From assembly GCA_028710415.1 (NCBI GenBank), contig JAQTUE010000003.1:124001-188000 (forward strand): a stretch of DNA of 64,000 nt, written 5' to 3'. Positions 926 through 63,958 of the stretch are shown one piece after another; positions within the stretch are counted from its first letter, which is position 1, and every line of letters begins with the position of its first letter. The translations under genes and the position numbers were made by a program. The notes under the pieces are model-generated. The model ran no database searches, was not told the DNA's origin, and saw only the letters and a list, made by a program, of their open reading frames with translations. This DNA is from Paludibacter sp. (GTDB lineage: Bacteria; Bacteroidota; Bacteroidia; Bacteroidales; Paludibacteraceae).

Positions 926-1303
926 TTATTTTACCGCAATCGTTTCAATCTCCACCAACGATCCCAATGGCAGTCCTTTCACAGCAAATGCTGCCCGTGC
1001 AGGACATTCCGCCTGATAATATTTTTTATACACATCATTCATCCCGGCAAAGTCTGCCATATCCGACAGGTATACCGTCGATTTTACCACATCCCCGAAA
1101 GTATATCCGGCTTCATCCAGAATAGCCTTTATATTTTCAAAAACCTGTTCCGTTTGTCCTGTAATATCGTTTGCTTCAATTTTACCCACTGCCGGATTAA
1201 TCGGTATCTGGCCTGATACATACAATGTCCCGTTCGCTTCTATTGCCTGGCTATACGGCCCAATGGCAGCCGGTGCCTTTGGGGTGTTGATTACTTTCTT
1301 CAT
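926..1303 (-). CDS. RidA/YjgF family enamine/imine deaminase
   Basis: Small cytoplasmic protein of the YjgF/YER057c/UK114 family, which hydrolyses reactive enamine/imine intermediates such as 2-aminoacrylate. The 125-residue length is normal for the family. Family motifs are visible: the N-terminal APAAIGPYSQAI, LYVSGQIPINPA, TGQTEQVFENIKAIL, and near the C-terminus CPARAAFAV (the conserved Arg that binds the substrate carboxylate) and GSLVEIETIA. An in-frame extension to 1369 exists, but the ATG at 1303 is chosen because the family starts there and AGGGAGA lies just upstream. Convergent with fmt. The family is sure; the exact metabolic role is not. Confidence 0.92.
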   Translation of the reverse strand: MKKVINTPKAPAAIGPYSQAIEANGTLYVSGQIPINPAVGKIEANDITGQTEQVFENIKAILDEAGYTFGDVVKSTVYLSDMADFAGMNDVYKKYYQAECPARAAFAVKGLPLGSLVEIETIAVK

Positions 1304-1866
1304 ATTCTCCCTTTTTATTTTTGTTAATGCAAAGATAATCATATTTCTGAATCGACGATTTGGAAACACATATTTTGATCCATTTCAAGTTTCAATTTTC
1401 TAAATTCCGCCAAATATAACAATCAAATTTCTATATGAAAATGGTCCTGATTTGTTCTCTTTTTGTTTTAGGTTGAGAGGGGGTTGGTATAGGGTTGGTA
1501 TAGGGTTAAGATAGGTAAACCCCTCTTTGCCCTATCTATGCCCTATCCAAACCTTCTCGGAGCCTCCTGTTTGCCTGGAATGAAAGCTATTTAATTTAAA
1601 TTAGAAAAGATATATTTTAAAAAATCCTTAAATTATGAATACTCTCAAGGAATAATGGAGATTTGTTTCTTAAAATATTTGTTTCAACTGATTATGGCAA
1701 TAAAACCTGTTGGTTATTTTGATGAACGGAGTTATAGGATACTATTTCCCTTTGTATTCACGTTATTTTACAACATTTTAATTTTTATTTCTTTGAAATG
1801 GCAGGGATATAATGCAGTAACGCAAACGTTTGCATTGAAATATGTTAAATATAAGTATTTAATAGA
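1304..1866. other. Gene-free stretch holding an 11-nt-period repeat
   Basis: About 560 bases between the divergent RidA and T9SS-protein genes. It holds the 11-nt repeat element listed separately at 1471-1553 and the motif CCGCCAAAT at 1407-1415, which recurs near two of the other 11-nt elements. A 75-codon open frame at 1655-1882 has no family features and a poor start, and overlaps the promoter of the next gene, so it is not called. Confidence 0.6.
1471..1553. repeat. Intergenic 11-nt-period repeat, copy A
   Basis: GGGTTGGTATA occurs twice exactly (1481-1491, 1492-1502), followed by the diverged unit GGGTTAAGATA (1503-1513). The next units run in the inverted sense (two steps of 11 with GCCCTAT, 1529-1546). 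The core AAGATAGGTAAACC is nearly the same as in copy B near 21818. Confidence 0.7.
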
Positions 1867-14493: not shown

Positions 14494-15714
14494 ATGGATA
14501 AAGATAATTTTTTACAAAAGGATAGACTCTGGACGCAAAGCTTTATAAGCGCCTGCACCAGTAACTTCCTTCTTTTCTTTGCATTTTATTTGTTATTGCC
14601 TGTTCTTCCGTTATATTTAATTGAAGAATTTCATACCTCGAAATCATTTGTTGGTATCATTCTGTCGTGTTACACCCTGGCAGCATTACTGATACGTCCC
14701 GCAGCAGGGTTTATCCTGGATATGTTCAAGCGTAAGCCAATCTACACCATTGCCTATTTCTTTTTTATACTTTCGTTTGTAGGCTACCCTCTTGCATCTG
14801 TTGTGAGCATGTTTCTATTCCTGCGTATCGTTCATGGATTTACTTTCGGAATGGTAACAACAGCCGGGAACAGCCTGATCGTAGATATTATGCCTGCTTC
14901 GCGAAGGGGAGAGGGGTTAGGGTATTTTGGGGTGGCAAATAATCTGGCCATGGCCATTGGTCCTATGATCAGCCTGTTCATGCACGACTATTATAGCTTT
15001 AATGCCATTTTCTATACGGCTATTGCCAGTGGGGTACTTGGATTCCTGGTTGTATTTACCATAAAATCGGATAAGACATTTGTACGAAGCCAGAAACAAC
15101 CCATTGCTTTTGACCGCTTCTTTCTGTTGAAAGGATTTTACTCAGGGTTATGCCTGTTAATGTTGGGAATCCCTTATGGAATGTTGACAACCTATGTGGC
15201 CATTTATGGCAAGGAATTAGGTATAACCAGCGGGATGGGTATCTTCTTTTCGCTTATGGCAGTCGGACTGATTGGATCGCGCTTGTTTGCAGGCAAGCTG
15301 GTCGATCGTGGAAGAATGATTCCTGTCATCGGTTACGGAACCCTGGTATGTTTGATTGGCTTTTTTATATTGGCAGCGCTGAAAAGCATTGAATTTTACA
15401 ATGCACAGTTGGTGGAAGGATTGTTCTATTTAATTGCCATTGTCCTGGGAGTTGGTTATGGAATGTTATTCCCTGCTTACAATACCCTGTTTGTAAATCT
15501 GGCGCAGAATAACCGTCGTGCAACAGCTAGTTCAACTTATCTAACCAGTTGGGATTTGGGTGTTGGATTAGGCCTTGTAATGGGTGGCACGTTGGCTGAT
15601 GCCCATGGCGGGTTGCCATTGGCTTATCTGGTAGGGGCTTTTACAACAGGATTCTCTTTATTGTTTTTCATGCGGATAGCAGGACCGCATTATGACCGGT
15701 ATAAACTGCGATGA
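14494..15714 (+). CDS. Major facilitator superfamily transporter
   Basis: 406 residues with about 12 hydrophobic helices in two six-helix halves. Typical MFS sequences are GFILDMFKRKPIYTIAYF after helix 2 (the motif A-like loop) and GRLFAGKLVDRGRMIP-type sequence in the second half (SRLFAGKLVDRGRM). It sits in the inner membrane and resembles sugar/drug efflux members, but no substrate can be read from the sequence. Convergent with the GGGP synthase operon across a repeat-rich hairpin. Confidence 0.9.
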   Translation: MDKDNFLQKDRLWTQSFISACTSNFLLFFAFYLLLPVLPLYLIEEFHTSKSFVGIILSCYTLAALLIRPAAGFILDMFKRKPIYTIAYFFFILSFVGYPLASVVSMFLFLRIVHGFTFGMVTTAGNSLIVDIMPASRRGEGLGYFGVANNLAMAIGPMISLFMHDYYSFNAIFYTAIASGVLGFLVVFTIKSDKTFVRSQKQPIAFDRFFLLKGFYSGLCLLMLGIPYGMLTTYVAIYGKELGITSGMGIFFSLMAVGLIGSRLFAGKLVDRGRMIPVIGYGTLVCLIGFFILAALKSIEFYNAQLVEGLFYLIAIVLGVGYGMLFPAYNTLFVNLAQNNRRATASSTYLTSWDLGVGLGLVMGGTLADAHGGLPLAYLVGAFTTGFSLLFFMRIAGPHYDRYKLR

Positions 15715-15718
15715 CTAA

Positions 15719-15810
15719 GGACTAAGGTCAAAGGACAAAAGTCATAAGACTCAAGACTCAAGACTCAAGACTCAAGACTCAAGACATTTGTCCTTTGACC
15801 TTAGACTTTA
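15719..15810. repeat. Hairpin with a five-copy GACTCAA tandem repeat in the loop
   Basis: AAGGTCAAAGGACAAA (15724-15739) pairs exactly with TTTGTCCTTTGACCTT (15787-15802), with related GGACTAA/TTAGTCC words outside. Between the arms lie five exact copies of the 7-mer GACTCAA (15748-15782). It separates two convergent genes and may act as a terminator. Confidence 0.8.
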
Positions 15811-15824
15811 GTCCTTGAAAAGCA

Positions 15825-21192: not shown

Positions 21193-21604
21193 AAATGATT
21201 ATCGGCTTTTGCACCCAACTTTCAGTTATTTCTTAATTTACCTCTGAATTGACAGTTATAATCTATTATGAAGCTCCAAATTACACCGTAGGTGTAACCT
21301 TTGAGTAACCCCCAGTGAAGCCTGCGGAACTGGGGGAAAATAAAATAGAAACTACCCAACTCCAGAGGAGTTGACCAAAAGAGAAAGTACTTAAACACTT
21401 GGTTCTGTTGGAGAACTCCTACAGAGTTCTGTCTTTGATTTCATTCATTACCCCCCAGTTTCGCAGGCTCAACTGGGGGGTATGTACAGAATACTCCTAC
21501 GGAGTAATTATCGATAGAATGGTTATTTCAATAAAAATCCAAAGAACAGATCATTACTAAAGGATAAAAAAACAAACTATGGGTGCAAAAGTCGATAGTC
21601 ATTT
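21193..21604. mobile_element. Fold-back, MITE-like element (412 bp) without coding capacity
   Basis: 25-bp terminal inverted repeats (21193-21217 and 21580-21604) match at 23 of 25 positions. Both ends are directly flanked by TTTTAT (21187-21192 and 21605-21610), a possible 6-bp target duplication, though in AT-rich DNA. The whole element is an imperfect inverted repeat about its centre near 21395: a CCCCCAGT...ACTGGGGG hairpin at 21309-21336 recurs reversed at 21451-21480, and small palindromes at 21281-21297, 21358-21372, 21414-21428 and 21492-21506 are placed symmetrically. No open frame encodes a transposase, so it would depend on one elsewhere. Confidence 0.7.
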
Positions 21605-21779
21605 TTTTATATTATCCTTTTATTTTATTGTCCCCAAAACTACTCATCCCAACTGACAGATTCAACTGGTGAAAATCTTAACTGAATTCTGAAAATAGAA
21701 GAAAAACTGACCGAAATTGCAGCACTTTTTCAAAAACGGATGCTCTGAATTCTGTCTTTATTTGTTCTTTACCTGTTCG

Positions 21780-21857
21780 GGGTTCAGTTAGGGTTCAGTT
21801 AGGGTTCAGTGAGGGTAAGGATAGGTAAACCTCATTGAACCCTCACTGAACCCCCTC
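21780..21857. repeat. Intergenic 11-nt-period repeat, copy B
   Basis: GGGTTCAGTTA twice exactly (21780-21790, 21791-21801), then GGGTTCAGTGA and GGGTAAGGATA, then inverted units. GGTTCAGTGAGGG (21803-21815) pairs exactly with CCCTCACTGAACC (21840-21852). The turn region AAGGATAGGTAAACC matches copy A. Confidence 0.75.
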
Positions 21858-21937
21858 TCAACTCCCTTTGAAAGGTCTCTCAACAAAGAATGGATTGAGT
21901 TCAAATTCAAAATAACCGCCAAATGCATAAAATGCAA

Positions 21938-21975
21938 AACCCGAATCAAAATCAGATGTAATTTTGATTCGGGTT
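21938..21975. repeat. Perfect 15-bp hairpin
   Basis: AACCCGAATCAAAAT (21938-21952), loop CAGATGTA, and the exact complement 21961-21975. No gene ends nearby on either strand, so it is not an obvious terminator of a known gene. Confidence 0.7.
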
Positions 21976-37350: not shown

Positions 37351-38299
37351 GCTTTTTATTCCCTGGAAATAGCCGTTCTATAAATGCATGAATTAATTGT
37401 AGGGCCCGGTTAGAATCCTTCCCAATATTCTTTTGATTTAATCGGTCCCGGTTTCTGTCGTTCCGTATTTTATTAATCCGTTTGAAATCAAGACGGTAAA
37501 GAGTGCCCCTAATACTCCTGTAAATCGGCGTTGATTTAGAAATCTCTAAATTTCACGTCTTCATACTTCTATTCTCTGAATTCGATATTGCATCCCATTA
37601 AGTACTTTCCTTTAAATTTTCTGACAGTAATCTTTGCCTGTATTGTCTGTCCTGTAATAAGTTTGATTATTAGCCAAATATTTACTTCCATGTATAAATA
37701 TTCATTATCTGGTGATGTAACTGTGATATTGCTACGATATCGCCATGATGTTGTATATAATCCATATATAATCCATATATAATCCAATAATAATCCATAT
37801 ATAATCCATACTTATATAGATATGGAATATATCTGGATTATTATTGGTTTACGATTAAGTTATTAATAAATTATAAGTAATGGGATGACGACATCATGAA
37901 GACATCTTTCCGGGTTTAATGTTTCAACTTTTGCGGTCGAAAAGTAGGAAGTCACGAAAAATCAGGATTTGCTTTCATATCTGATTTGAAAAGATTATTT
38001 AGATTTTTGCAATAAAGTTAAATTGTTGGTTTTAAGATTCAAAATATGCGACGATTAGAATTTGAATGAACAATTAATGTCAGTTAATCAGTTATTTAAA
38101 GCCAATTAATACCGGGACTTCAGATAAATATTCTTTCTTCACGTAACTCCGTAGGCGATTTTAATATTGAAGTATTGTTAAATTAAATACAAAATAGACA
38201 ATCAAATTCAATAGGATTAATATCATTCGATATACAAAATTAGTGCCACTGACCTCTTATATTTGTCATACTTTAAATCAATGAACTGAAAAAAACGCT
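37351..38299. other. 950-bp gene-free stretch before the six-hairpin gene
   Basis: Holds the 11-nt repeat copy C near 37754-37852 and its boundary repeats. TATATTTG at 38258-38265 is a possible -7 element of the next gene without a clear -33. Open frames here are short and built largely from the repeat. Confidence 0.55.
37736..37906. repeat. Intergenic 11-nt-period repeat, copy C, with inverted boundaries
   Basis: Five consecutive 11-nt units, TATATAATCCA or one variant, at 37754-37764, -775, -786, -797 and -808. These are followed by inverted units: CCAATAATAATCCA (37784-37797) pairs exactly with TGGATTATTATTGG (37834-37847). Outer boundaries at 37736-37754 and 37888-37906 are inverted repeats of each other at 15 of 19 positions, and the left one shares GCCATGATGTTG with copy D. 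Confidence 0.8.
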
Positions 38300-59142: not shown

Positions 59143-59926
59143 TGTTTAAAAGTTTACAATTTTAAATGGTGAATTAATATTATAACTTGAAATACTAAGT
59201 ACATGACAAAAAAAGCAATAATCACAAAATAGATTTATATTGAGTGACTTACAAAGAAAAGACTAACCACAAAAGTCACAAAAGAATCACAAAAGCAATT
59301 AGGTTTTACAAGAAAGAATACGAAAAATGAAAATACTAAAAGCATTTAAAATCTGATATTAAAAACAGAAGGTTCTTATGTGCACTTAATATTGACTTTG
59401 GTTGAATGTAAGTTTAACTTTTGTGATTTTTTTGTGACTTTTGTGGTGATGTTTTGCTTTAATATATTTATTTTGCGACTGTTAGTGATGATACTATTTT
59501 TTGTCATGGACTAAACTTGAAATAGAACAAATCATACTGGTTAGAGCAAGTTTTGATTAATTATTACAGGGAACGCTTTTTAAATTAGGGTGCAGATTCT
59601 GATTTATAAAGCGTTATCTGTTATTTGTAAGTTTGTTGTAGCAAAATAATACCTGTATCCAAATACCATAAATAATTATATATCAAATATCGAAGTTTAA
59701 AAGTCAATTACGATATTTATTTTATCCTTAGAATAAGGATTTTTGTACATGAGATTTTTTGTTTCCTGTCGATTGAGTATTTATCAGTAAATAAGCAGTT
59801 TGGAAAACCCGAAATCAATTACGCTAACCTTTGAGCTTAAACATACAATTATACATCAAAATTTTTGAGTACCCATAAATCTATTTTTAAACGATTTAAT
59901 CTTTTACTATTTAAACACATTTTACA
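59143..59926. other. 784-bp gene-free stretch before the large PL1 gene
   Basis: Holds the 30-bp inverted repeat listed separately. The rest is AT-rich, with no convincing promoter or terminator match and no open frame of interest. Confidence 0.5.
59266..59447. repeat. 30-bp inverted repeat of CACAAAAG words enclosing about 120 bp
   Basis: 59266-59295 and 59418-59447 are reverse complements at 29 of 30 positions; each arm is built from three CACAAAAG-like words. The enclosed ~120 bases have no open frame. It could form a long cruciform or be a small fold-back element. Confidence 0.75.
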
Positions 59927-63538: not shown

Positions 63539-63591
63539 TTTCAAACCTTTCAAACCTTTCAAACTTTTCAAACTCTTCAAACTCTTCAAAC
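63539..63591. repeat. Tandem 9-nt tract of TTCAAAC words
   Basis: Six successive units of the form N-N-TTCAAAC with a 9-nt step (two CTTTCAAAC, one TTTTCAAAC, two TCTTCAAAC). It lies directly before the 11-nt repeat copy D. Similar but irregular TCAAAC words are at 830-879. Confidence 0.7.
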
Positions 63592-63617
63592 ACGGAACGT
63601 TTTCTTGATGATATTGC

Positions 63618-63783
63618 CATGATGTTTTCATGATGTTGCACGTATTACGTGGTAGATACGTGGCAGATACGTATATGTCTCGTATATGTCCCGTGCCTAT
63701 AAAGGAGCGTAATATGTACGTATCTGCCGCATAAGGTTGCGGAAACTATAACGCAATACGTGCAACATCATGAAAACATCATG
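63618..63783. repeat. Intergenic 11-nt-period repeat, copy D, inside a 29-bp perfect inverted repeat
   Basis: The arms 63618-63646 and 63755-63783 are exact reverse complements over 29 bases. Within lie 11-nt steps ending in CGT: 63640-63650, GGTAGATACGT, GGCAGATACGT, ATATGTCTCGT, ATATGTCCCGT (to 63694). The left arm contains TTGCCATGATGTT, as the left boundary of copy C does. Confidence 0.85.
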
Positions 63784-63958
63784 TCATTGTCATAAAGAAT
63801 TAATGCATGGCTGCACTTCAACAGGTAGTAACTGCAGAAAATGTCAGAATCAAGATTGTTTTTGTCAAATAATCTATATATAGGATGTAGTATTGCAAGT
63901 ATTTTTGACTCGATAAGTAGTATCCTTGAATCTCATATTTTATTTAACTTCATAGTGC

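Follow-up and report, generated by a model that had tools for sequence, protein, structure and literature searches.

As far as the published descriptions reach, the systems closest to the elements analysed here are BrickBuilt and PINSR within Bacteroidales and, by architecture, the eukaryotic foldback transposons, of which FB of Drosophila is one. BrickBuilt, MITEPgRS and MITE464 of Porphyromonas gingivalis (Bacteroidales) are described as intergenic, non-coding, dispersed elements with tandem repeats, having direct-repeat units of 23 and 41 nt, IS5-like short terminal inverted repeats and a widely variable unit number; BrickBuilt is present in 19 copies in ATCC 33277, at 49–591 nt from genes, with predicted long stem-loops (PMC4596501). 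The PINSR repeat of Prevotella intermedia and Prevotella nigrescens is 188 bp long, intergenic and lineage-restricted, with 177 and 184 copies in two strains, and is described as having no terminal inverted repeats (PMC4755523). The foldback transposons Galileo and Tetris carry long inverted arms with internal tandem repeats and have non-autonomous forms (PMC4079207, PMC3688188, PMC3573991). The tandem units of Tetris are about 220 bp long (PMC4079207), and multiple binding sites of the transposase domain are reported in the long inverted repeats of Galileo (PMC3688188/PMC3573991). The REP/REPIN-RAYT systems consist of intergenic palindromic repeats in high copy (PMC3733652, PMC2817692, PMC3116915, PMC12306157), the REPs being 20–40 bp in length (PMC3733652). 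No description of 11-nt palindromic arrays or of such a design was found in the literature search, within the text available from its sources (PMC4596501, PMC8794818, PMC4079207, PMC4755523 and PMC5771137 among them); the words "11-bp repeats" occur in a paper on light regulation in Myxococcales (PMC9304148).

The window, i.e. the whole 64,000-nt stretch of DNA analysed, corresponds to positions 124001–188000 of contig C101 of the Paludibacter sp. assembly (G000; 6.28 Mb in 104 contigs, rated 100% complete and 6.3% contaminated), and its genes, which encode a TonB-receptor plug domain and a Por secretion tail among others, are of Bacteroidales appearance. The initial annotation had proposed four 11-nt tracts that continue as their own inverted complement. 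All four, A–D, were found where it had placed them, with period 11 determined by Tandem Repeats Finder at 1481–1507, 21780–21816, 37754–37810 and 63646–63672; the elements themselves were larger than had been claimed. No strand is assigned to any of them. Element A (1468–1569, ends taken from the fold) is a hairpin of 11-nt GGGTTGGTATA units belonging to the GGGTT family; its palindrome was recognised by folding, its complementary tract lies downstream in coordinates at 1524–1547, and it is located in the gap between a RidA-like ORF (926–1369, minus strand) and an ORF at 1925. Element B, of the same family, has a palindromic core at 21779–21865 composed of GGGTTCAGTTA units, the turn AAGGATAGGTAAACC and a complementary arm (arms 21779–21814/21830–21865, complementary 11-nt tract 21830–21853). 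This core is surrounded by a dispersed repeat of about 320 nt (21653–21973): at least two matches to other copies cover −174 to +146 of the centre at 21827, and the outer reach is about −180 to +170 nt. Element C, the palindrome at 37725–37906, contains TATATAATCCA units and outer modules of the GCCATGATGTT/AACATC type, and 73.7% similarity to the TTCCATATATA family was determined over 118 nt without gaps. Element D (63607–63794) is a 188-nt full-length, palindromic copy of family V in a 17 x 11-nt register, with 87% complementary arms at 63602–63655/63746–63799; it is abutted by an array (63539–63600, likewise without strand) of 9-nt TTTCAAACT units and the 7-nt-type sequence AACACGGAACG. The boundary word noted for C and D is indeed shared by them; it is GCCATGATGTT, an 11-nt outer module which recurs in other copies.

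Further inverted repeats were observed in the window. A second large one (21279–21509; 66-nt arms, 77% complementary, 99 nt apart) lies in the gap of element B itself. The arms of another, at 59253–59460, measure 43 nt (86%), enclose a loop of 122 nt and hold CACAAAAG-type short tandem units. The palindrome at 15713–15813 is built of 7-nt units (AAGACTC and GACTAAG types; 46-nt arms, 80% complementary) and is one of the few such cases among 7-nt arrays.

The 11-nt architecture was detected in several families of the genome, namely GGGTTnnnnnA (A and B), CCCTCGATACC, TTCCATATATA/TATATAATCCA (C), ATCTAAGATAC, CTCCTATATAT and the family of D, family V, with ACGTATCTACC units and outer CATGATGTT modules. 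Since some families have outer modules in common, the elements look modular. In the GGGTT family the unit number differs among copies and the arms can be unequal in length, and therefore a fixed length is not general to these elements. The GTCTC-containing end motif of this family gave 4 matches in an 864-kb sample of the genome, all single and never as a close pair; an autonomous partner with GGGTT-family ends was not found in that sample. The view of the initial annotation that the constant step arose by something other than simple copying was not borne out, because copying contributes much: at least 20 dispersed full-length relatives exist for D, and B lies within a larger dispersed repeat. 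Nothing in these results points to a dedicated polymerase or reverse transcriptase, also proposed there, or to transcription.

In comparison with BrickBuilt as described, these elements occur in the same order of bacteria and are also intergenic, non-coding, dispersed and rich in tandem repeats. The differences are that BrickBuilt has 23-nt tandem units and GAGACC...-type ends, whereas here the units are of 11 nt, both arms of a palindrome are built from them and, in family V, the length is fixed; ends of the IS type were not found. A GAGACC-like sequence was detected on one side only of some GGGTT-family copies. PINSR, compared by description only, resembles family V in size, intergenic location and lineage restriction, but 11-nt modules are not part of its description. 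With the foldback transposons the elements share long inverted arms holding internal tandem repeats; in contrast to the published eukaryotic cases the units here are shorter (11 nt). REP/REPIN elements are similarly intergenic, palindromic and of high copy, but the REPs, as they are described, are without arrays of 11-nt modules. The elements of the genome are inverted repeats throughout and are present, as MITEs are, in many short non-coding dispersed copies (21 in family V), whereas a target-site duplication was not found in those 21 copies (best z of 1.92 in 3960 boundary/length tests).

The abundance of the 11-nt step was determined in the 864-kb sample (41 stretches, about 14% of the 6.28-Mb assembly, 800 kb of it beyond the window). 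Intergenic tracts with a score of at least 11 numbered 51 for period 11, compared with 9, 2 and 1 for periods 10, 12 and 13; periods 7, 8 and 9 were likewise abundant, with 62, 41 and 40 tracts. The comparison set in advance, whether the 11-nt step is commoner than other short periods, was thus positive against 10, 12 and 13 and negative against 7, 8 and 9. The proposition that 11 is the sole abundant period is ruled out, the 7-, 8- and 9-nt arrays being about equally common and mostly non-palindromic. What distinguishes period 11 is palindromy, not abundance: 44 of its 52 tracts lay in palindromes (A and D, with tandem-tract scores of 11 and 12 against a cut-off of 14 in the palindromy screen, being tallied among the 8 non-palindromic ones), as compared with 7/58, 5/33 and 14/35 for periods 7, 8 and 9. 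When palindromes were selected blind to period (at least 60 nt, n = 58), the best period was 11 in 23, 7 in 5 and none in 19, so that period 11 is both the palindromic class and the leading period among palindromes. The rarity of periods 10, 12 and 13 together with these two values rules out a chance origin of the tracts, and the constant 11-nt step with changing sequence, as first noted, belongs to a real intergenic family rather than a chance set.

Short tandemly repeated repetitive (STRR) sequences of cyanobacteria are unidirectional arrays rather than palindromes, and heptamer repeats are also known from cyanobacteria. The 11-nt class differs from the STRR type by its palindromy in 44/52 tracts, whereas the 7- and 8-nt arrays here are mostly non-palindromic. 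Long intergenic arrays with 8-nt (CCAATCAA), 7-nt (AACACGG, GTAGTAG) and 9-nt (TCAACTTAA-type) units were observed, for example at L060:4588–4830, L045:17324–17417 and L038:1532–1689 of the own-genome sample; these resemble the cyanobacterial heptamer repeats.

Length rigidity and arm covariation were measured in family V only. By DNA search, at least 21 distinct full-length copies of about 187 nt (17 x 11) were found at different loci of the genome, with 68–100% identity to D, and a covariance model, by which at most 43 candidates per genome were scored, added two further places. In the aligned block the 21 copies are 188–190 nt long and the sole internal gap is a 2-nt difference at the centre, which divides the family into subfamilies of 13 and 8. 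The 210 pairs differ by 48 substitutions on average (at most 77) and by 0.5 gap events, and the parsimony tree contains 398 substitutions and one indel event. In non-coding DNA of G000 and the relative G006, 1650 substitutions and 190 gaps were counted, i.e. 8.7 substitutions per gap; at this baseline 45.7 gap events would be expected in family V compared with the one observed, the ratio being approximate, as the indel count depends on the alignment (a raised gap penalty in MAFFT, BLAST for the baseline), and the difference large. The same single internal gap was obtained under the alignment tool's own settings. For the TTCCATATATA family, alignment with its best-matching places was likewise free of gaps. 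Of the mechanisms originally proposed, helical phasing is consistent with this near-absence of indels in family V (1 versus about 46).

While the unit sequence drifts in family V, the 11-nt register, the total length and the complementarity of the arms stay. The consensus matches itself at 0.49 at lag 11 and 0.42 at lag 22, with no other lag between 1 and 39 above 0.34. The best symmetry axis was determined at 217 (67 of 106 columns), and the next two, 206 and 228 (48 and 47 of 101 columns), are shifts of 11 from it; a fourth, shifted by 22, is barely above those that follow. In column pairs where both sides vary, 506 of 672 cells pair, compared with 472.8 ± 6.8 after permutation within the subfamilies (0 of 2000 permutations as high). 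Doubly changed cells numbered 65, compared with 24.8 ± 3.8 after shuffling (0/500 as high), and 17 pairs have changes on both sides; most of this signal is lost when the partners are slid by 1–3 columns. Between the two subfamilies, multi-base block changes are present on both arms. The mismatches comprise 62 GT/TG and 64 AC/CA, and similar counts were obtained for the 864-kb sample, 99 of the G-T type and 94 of the A-C type (5 weak elements of 40 dropped, 2 counted twice); in tandem gaps the wobble-type mismatches were 39 in gene sense and 58 in antisense. As no wobble bias is present, the symmetry of family V seems to be kept at the level of DNA and not as an RNA hairpin.

The genomic position was determined for 36 of 40 screened elements, the 4 without a neighbour on one side being left out; the automated screen, which also supplied the sample's wobble counts and the exported-gene and flank-array counts, omits A and D, as their short tracts are below its cut-off. 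Tandem gaps hold 21 of the 36, divergent gaps 11 and convergent gaps 4. The median distance to the gene is 398 nt on the left and 427 nt on the right, with 18/36 elements at 300–500 nt on each side, which disfavours a terminator or a 5'UTR/leader element. Tandem CAAAC/GGAAC arrays occur on one side of 14 of the 21 family V copies, the side on which the array abuts D, and on the other side of 1 of 21 (background 8/732 windows), so the copied unit probably includes these flanking arrays. The location upstream of genes for exported proteins, noted for all four elements, is not an enrichment: by a crude signal-peptide rule, 18 of 44 facing ORFs were positive compared with 257 of 605 ORFs in total. 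The CCRCCAAAT motif is indeed found close to A, B and D (at less than 200 nt), as had been observed, but the remaining screened elements have no copy of it nearby; of 40 sites in the sample, 3 are near elements, compared with 0.9 expected. As general traits both links were discarded, since they do not extend beyond the A–D cases.

The occurrence of related elements is patchy, in few members of the genus. The turn region common to A and B is the centre of the GGGTT family, whose pattern was present in 3 of 100 genomes, with 162 overlapping matches in the own genome, 214 in G006, 38 in G008 and 0 in the 97 other relatives. The reversed pattern gave 0 matches in these three genomes and 1 in each of two others. 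Among the matches listed, ordinary 11-nt arrays of unrelated taxa are also matched by the pattern, and a looser form of it was found in 21 viral stretches, of which at least three (L196, L197, L202) reached a complementary score of 16, a moderate value. Phage and plasmid records gave no match to family V, nor did viral contigs by pattern. At the threshold applied to G000, no 11-nt tract was detected in samples of six relatives (G015, 200 kb; G001, 160 kb; G061 and G074, 100 kb each; G027 and G067, 40 kb each). With the covariance model (E ≤ 0.01, at most 43 candidates per genome, strict filters), family V-like matches were obtained in at least 6 of 60 genomes; outside G000 these were at least 22 matches at 15 places in G008 (both strands counted), 3 in G006, 2 in G029, 1 in G004 and 1 weak in G064.

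The 14 folded copies of G008 have in common an inner core of GTTACATACAT-like units. Their outer arms are, by eye, of about three types (TTCGTGG units; CCTGCCTTTG/GGTCTTTA; CCTGTACAGATCC), which are largely paired within their own copy; the outer pairing of copy L386 is partial, and nearly perfect non-repetitive inverted arms of about 45 and 35 nt are present in L373 and L389. In G029 the unit is 22 nt (L364/L369), the self-match being 0.69–0.71 at lag 22 and 0.19–0.22 at lag 11, and a palindromic array with 21-nt units was found in G015 (L219:3227–3344). Judged from these few sequences, the 21- and 22-nt units may be multiples of about one helical turn. Arrays of 11 nt with complementary tracts and other unit sequences were also observed in two more distant Bacteroidota, Flavihumibacter sp. 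ZG627 (L107) and Prevotella sp. P2-180 (L142). Among 8 palindromes in 280 kb of ZG627, 2 had period 11 and 4 period 7, rates that are biased because the stretches of this organism, as well as those of G006 and Prevotella, were partly picked for holding pattern matches.

Few elements could be compared between G000 and G006 by synteny, in blocks 77–87% identical. In one case the G000 element has no counterpart in the syntenic gap of G006, but with the spacer diverged throughout this does not amount to a clean empty-site pair. In two gaps, that of element A and another fetched because of a pattern match and hence a biased choice, 11-nt palindromes are found in G000 as well as in G006, but their sequences differ. 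The same family was thus present in recognisable form in 0 of 3 comparable gaps. Different palindromes at one site would look like this either after unit turnover or after repeated insertion at tolerated sites, two histories that the data do not separate. In four relatives (L207, L209, L212, L214) the RidA and valS matches are about 115–215 nt apart. In the window this gap (1370–2946) contains element A together with a gene that matches DUF6383 weakly, and a related gene is found in G006, so that a larger insertion is present.

The elements are best interpreted as a superfamily of non-autonomous, foldback/MITE-like DNA repeats built from helical-turn modules, with a putative reader and mobiliser, a reading to which we give a probability of slightly below one half (about 0.48). 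On this reading they are several related families of short, non-coding, dispersed elements, each a near-palindrome of about 100–350 bp in which a short centre is flanked by arms of successive 11-bp modules, each module spanning about one helical turn. Copying of whole elements to new intergenic sites is evident from the dispersed copies, at least 21 for D and 162 overlapping pattern matches for the GGGTT family. A protein, most likely a putative transposition enzyme or a partner of one, would recognise the modules in register, either in duplex DNA or in a DNA hairpin, and by such in-register reading indels would be eliminated. Replication slippage could spread a unit variant along one arm and template switching between the arms could carry it to the opposite one, and in this way the unit sequence would turn over while period and symmetry remained fixed.

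The last two processes might suffice by themselves. In a purely mutational upkeep, template switching would correct one arm from the other and slippage would keep the units alike, with neither protein nor selection involved. In the published account, template switching is able to create and fix hairpin stems (PMC8794818), and the block changes on both arms between the family V subfamilies, the nearly perfect non-repetitive outer arms of two G008 copies and the variable unit number of the GGGTT family all point in this direction. However, slippage should alter unit number and length, yet family V has one indel where about 46 are expected. An 11-nt unit across several unrelated unit sequences and several genomes is left unexplained, as is the absence of 11-nt tracts from the samples of six relatives, and we consider this explanation rather unlikely. 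If the length constraint, far above that of non-coding DNA in family V, were instead imposed by the host, the elements could be sites of chromosomal architecture, inverted arrays of 11-bp modules bound by a nucleoid or segregation protein and kept by host selection. That they sit well within long intergenic stretches, the neighbouring genes being at median distances of about 400 nt on one side and 430 nt on the other, would agree with such a role. It is nevertheless quite improbable, given the restriction to few members of one genus (3/100 genomes for the GGGTT pattern, 6/60 for family V-like matches among the candidates scored) and the failure to recognise the same family in any of the three syntenic gaps; dissimilar unit sequences within one genome also fit poorly with one conserved host protein.

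The A-form helix has 11 bp per turn. This periodicity would match the step exactly if the elements were transcribed into long double-stranded RNA hairpins, and the predicted folds are strong, as computed without a shuffled control. That origin of the step was regarded as very unlikely, as G-U-type mismatches are not in excess over the A-C type in either orientation, the window has 0 Rfam matches at gathering score and the elements lie far from the flanking genes. Movement as REP/REPIN elements by a RAYT (Y1) transposase has been largely refuted. Y1_Tnp genes do exist in the own genome, with 10 matches, and 34 of the 40 genomes that were searched, the own included, have them; one Y1 match has a non-palindromic 11-nt array of TTCGTAAACCT-type units (L301:1796–1830, contig C44 of G000) at a distance of about 230 nt, and another has an 11-nt palindromic tract (L297:162–209) at about 1.9 kb. 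Yet at none of 17 Y1 loci, a subset of the matches (8 own, 3 each in G006, G008 and G015), does an 11-nt palindrome adjoin the gene; several of these loci are flanked by small ordinary hairpins, and most genomes that lack the elements carry Y1 genes as well. Loss of SbcCD as a permissive condition was considered separately and is not required: an sbcD match above the family cut-off is absent from G000 and G008 and present in G006.

Against the reading as non-autonomous, foldback/MITE-like repeats, which we prefer, it counts that no transposase or other mobilising gene was linked to a copy at the loci examined, that family V yielded no target-site duplication and that the assembly is rated 6.3% contaminated. 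The strong length constraint is also unusual if the repeats are purely parasitic, and a host function could be possible. A bolder version, which we regard as unlikely, is that only the geometry is constant: hairpins or cruciforms would be read one 11-bp turn at a time, almost any unit sequence would be tolerated as long as the arms match and the register is kept, and a dedicated copying process would rewrite both arms together. Relatives may then use units of two turns, 22 nt in G029 and 21 nt in G015.

Dispersed bacterial repeats are normally defined by their sequence, whereas step length and symmetry are what define this group, its sequence being free to turn over. This suggests that repeat searches based on sequence only would split or miss such families. 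The elements offer a natural test of how palindromes, which are known to be unstable, arise and persist in bacterial chromosomes, and of whether DNA is read by a protein in units of the helical turn.
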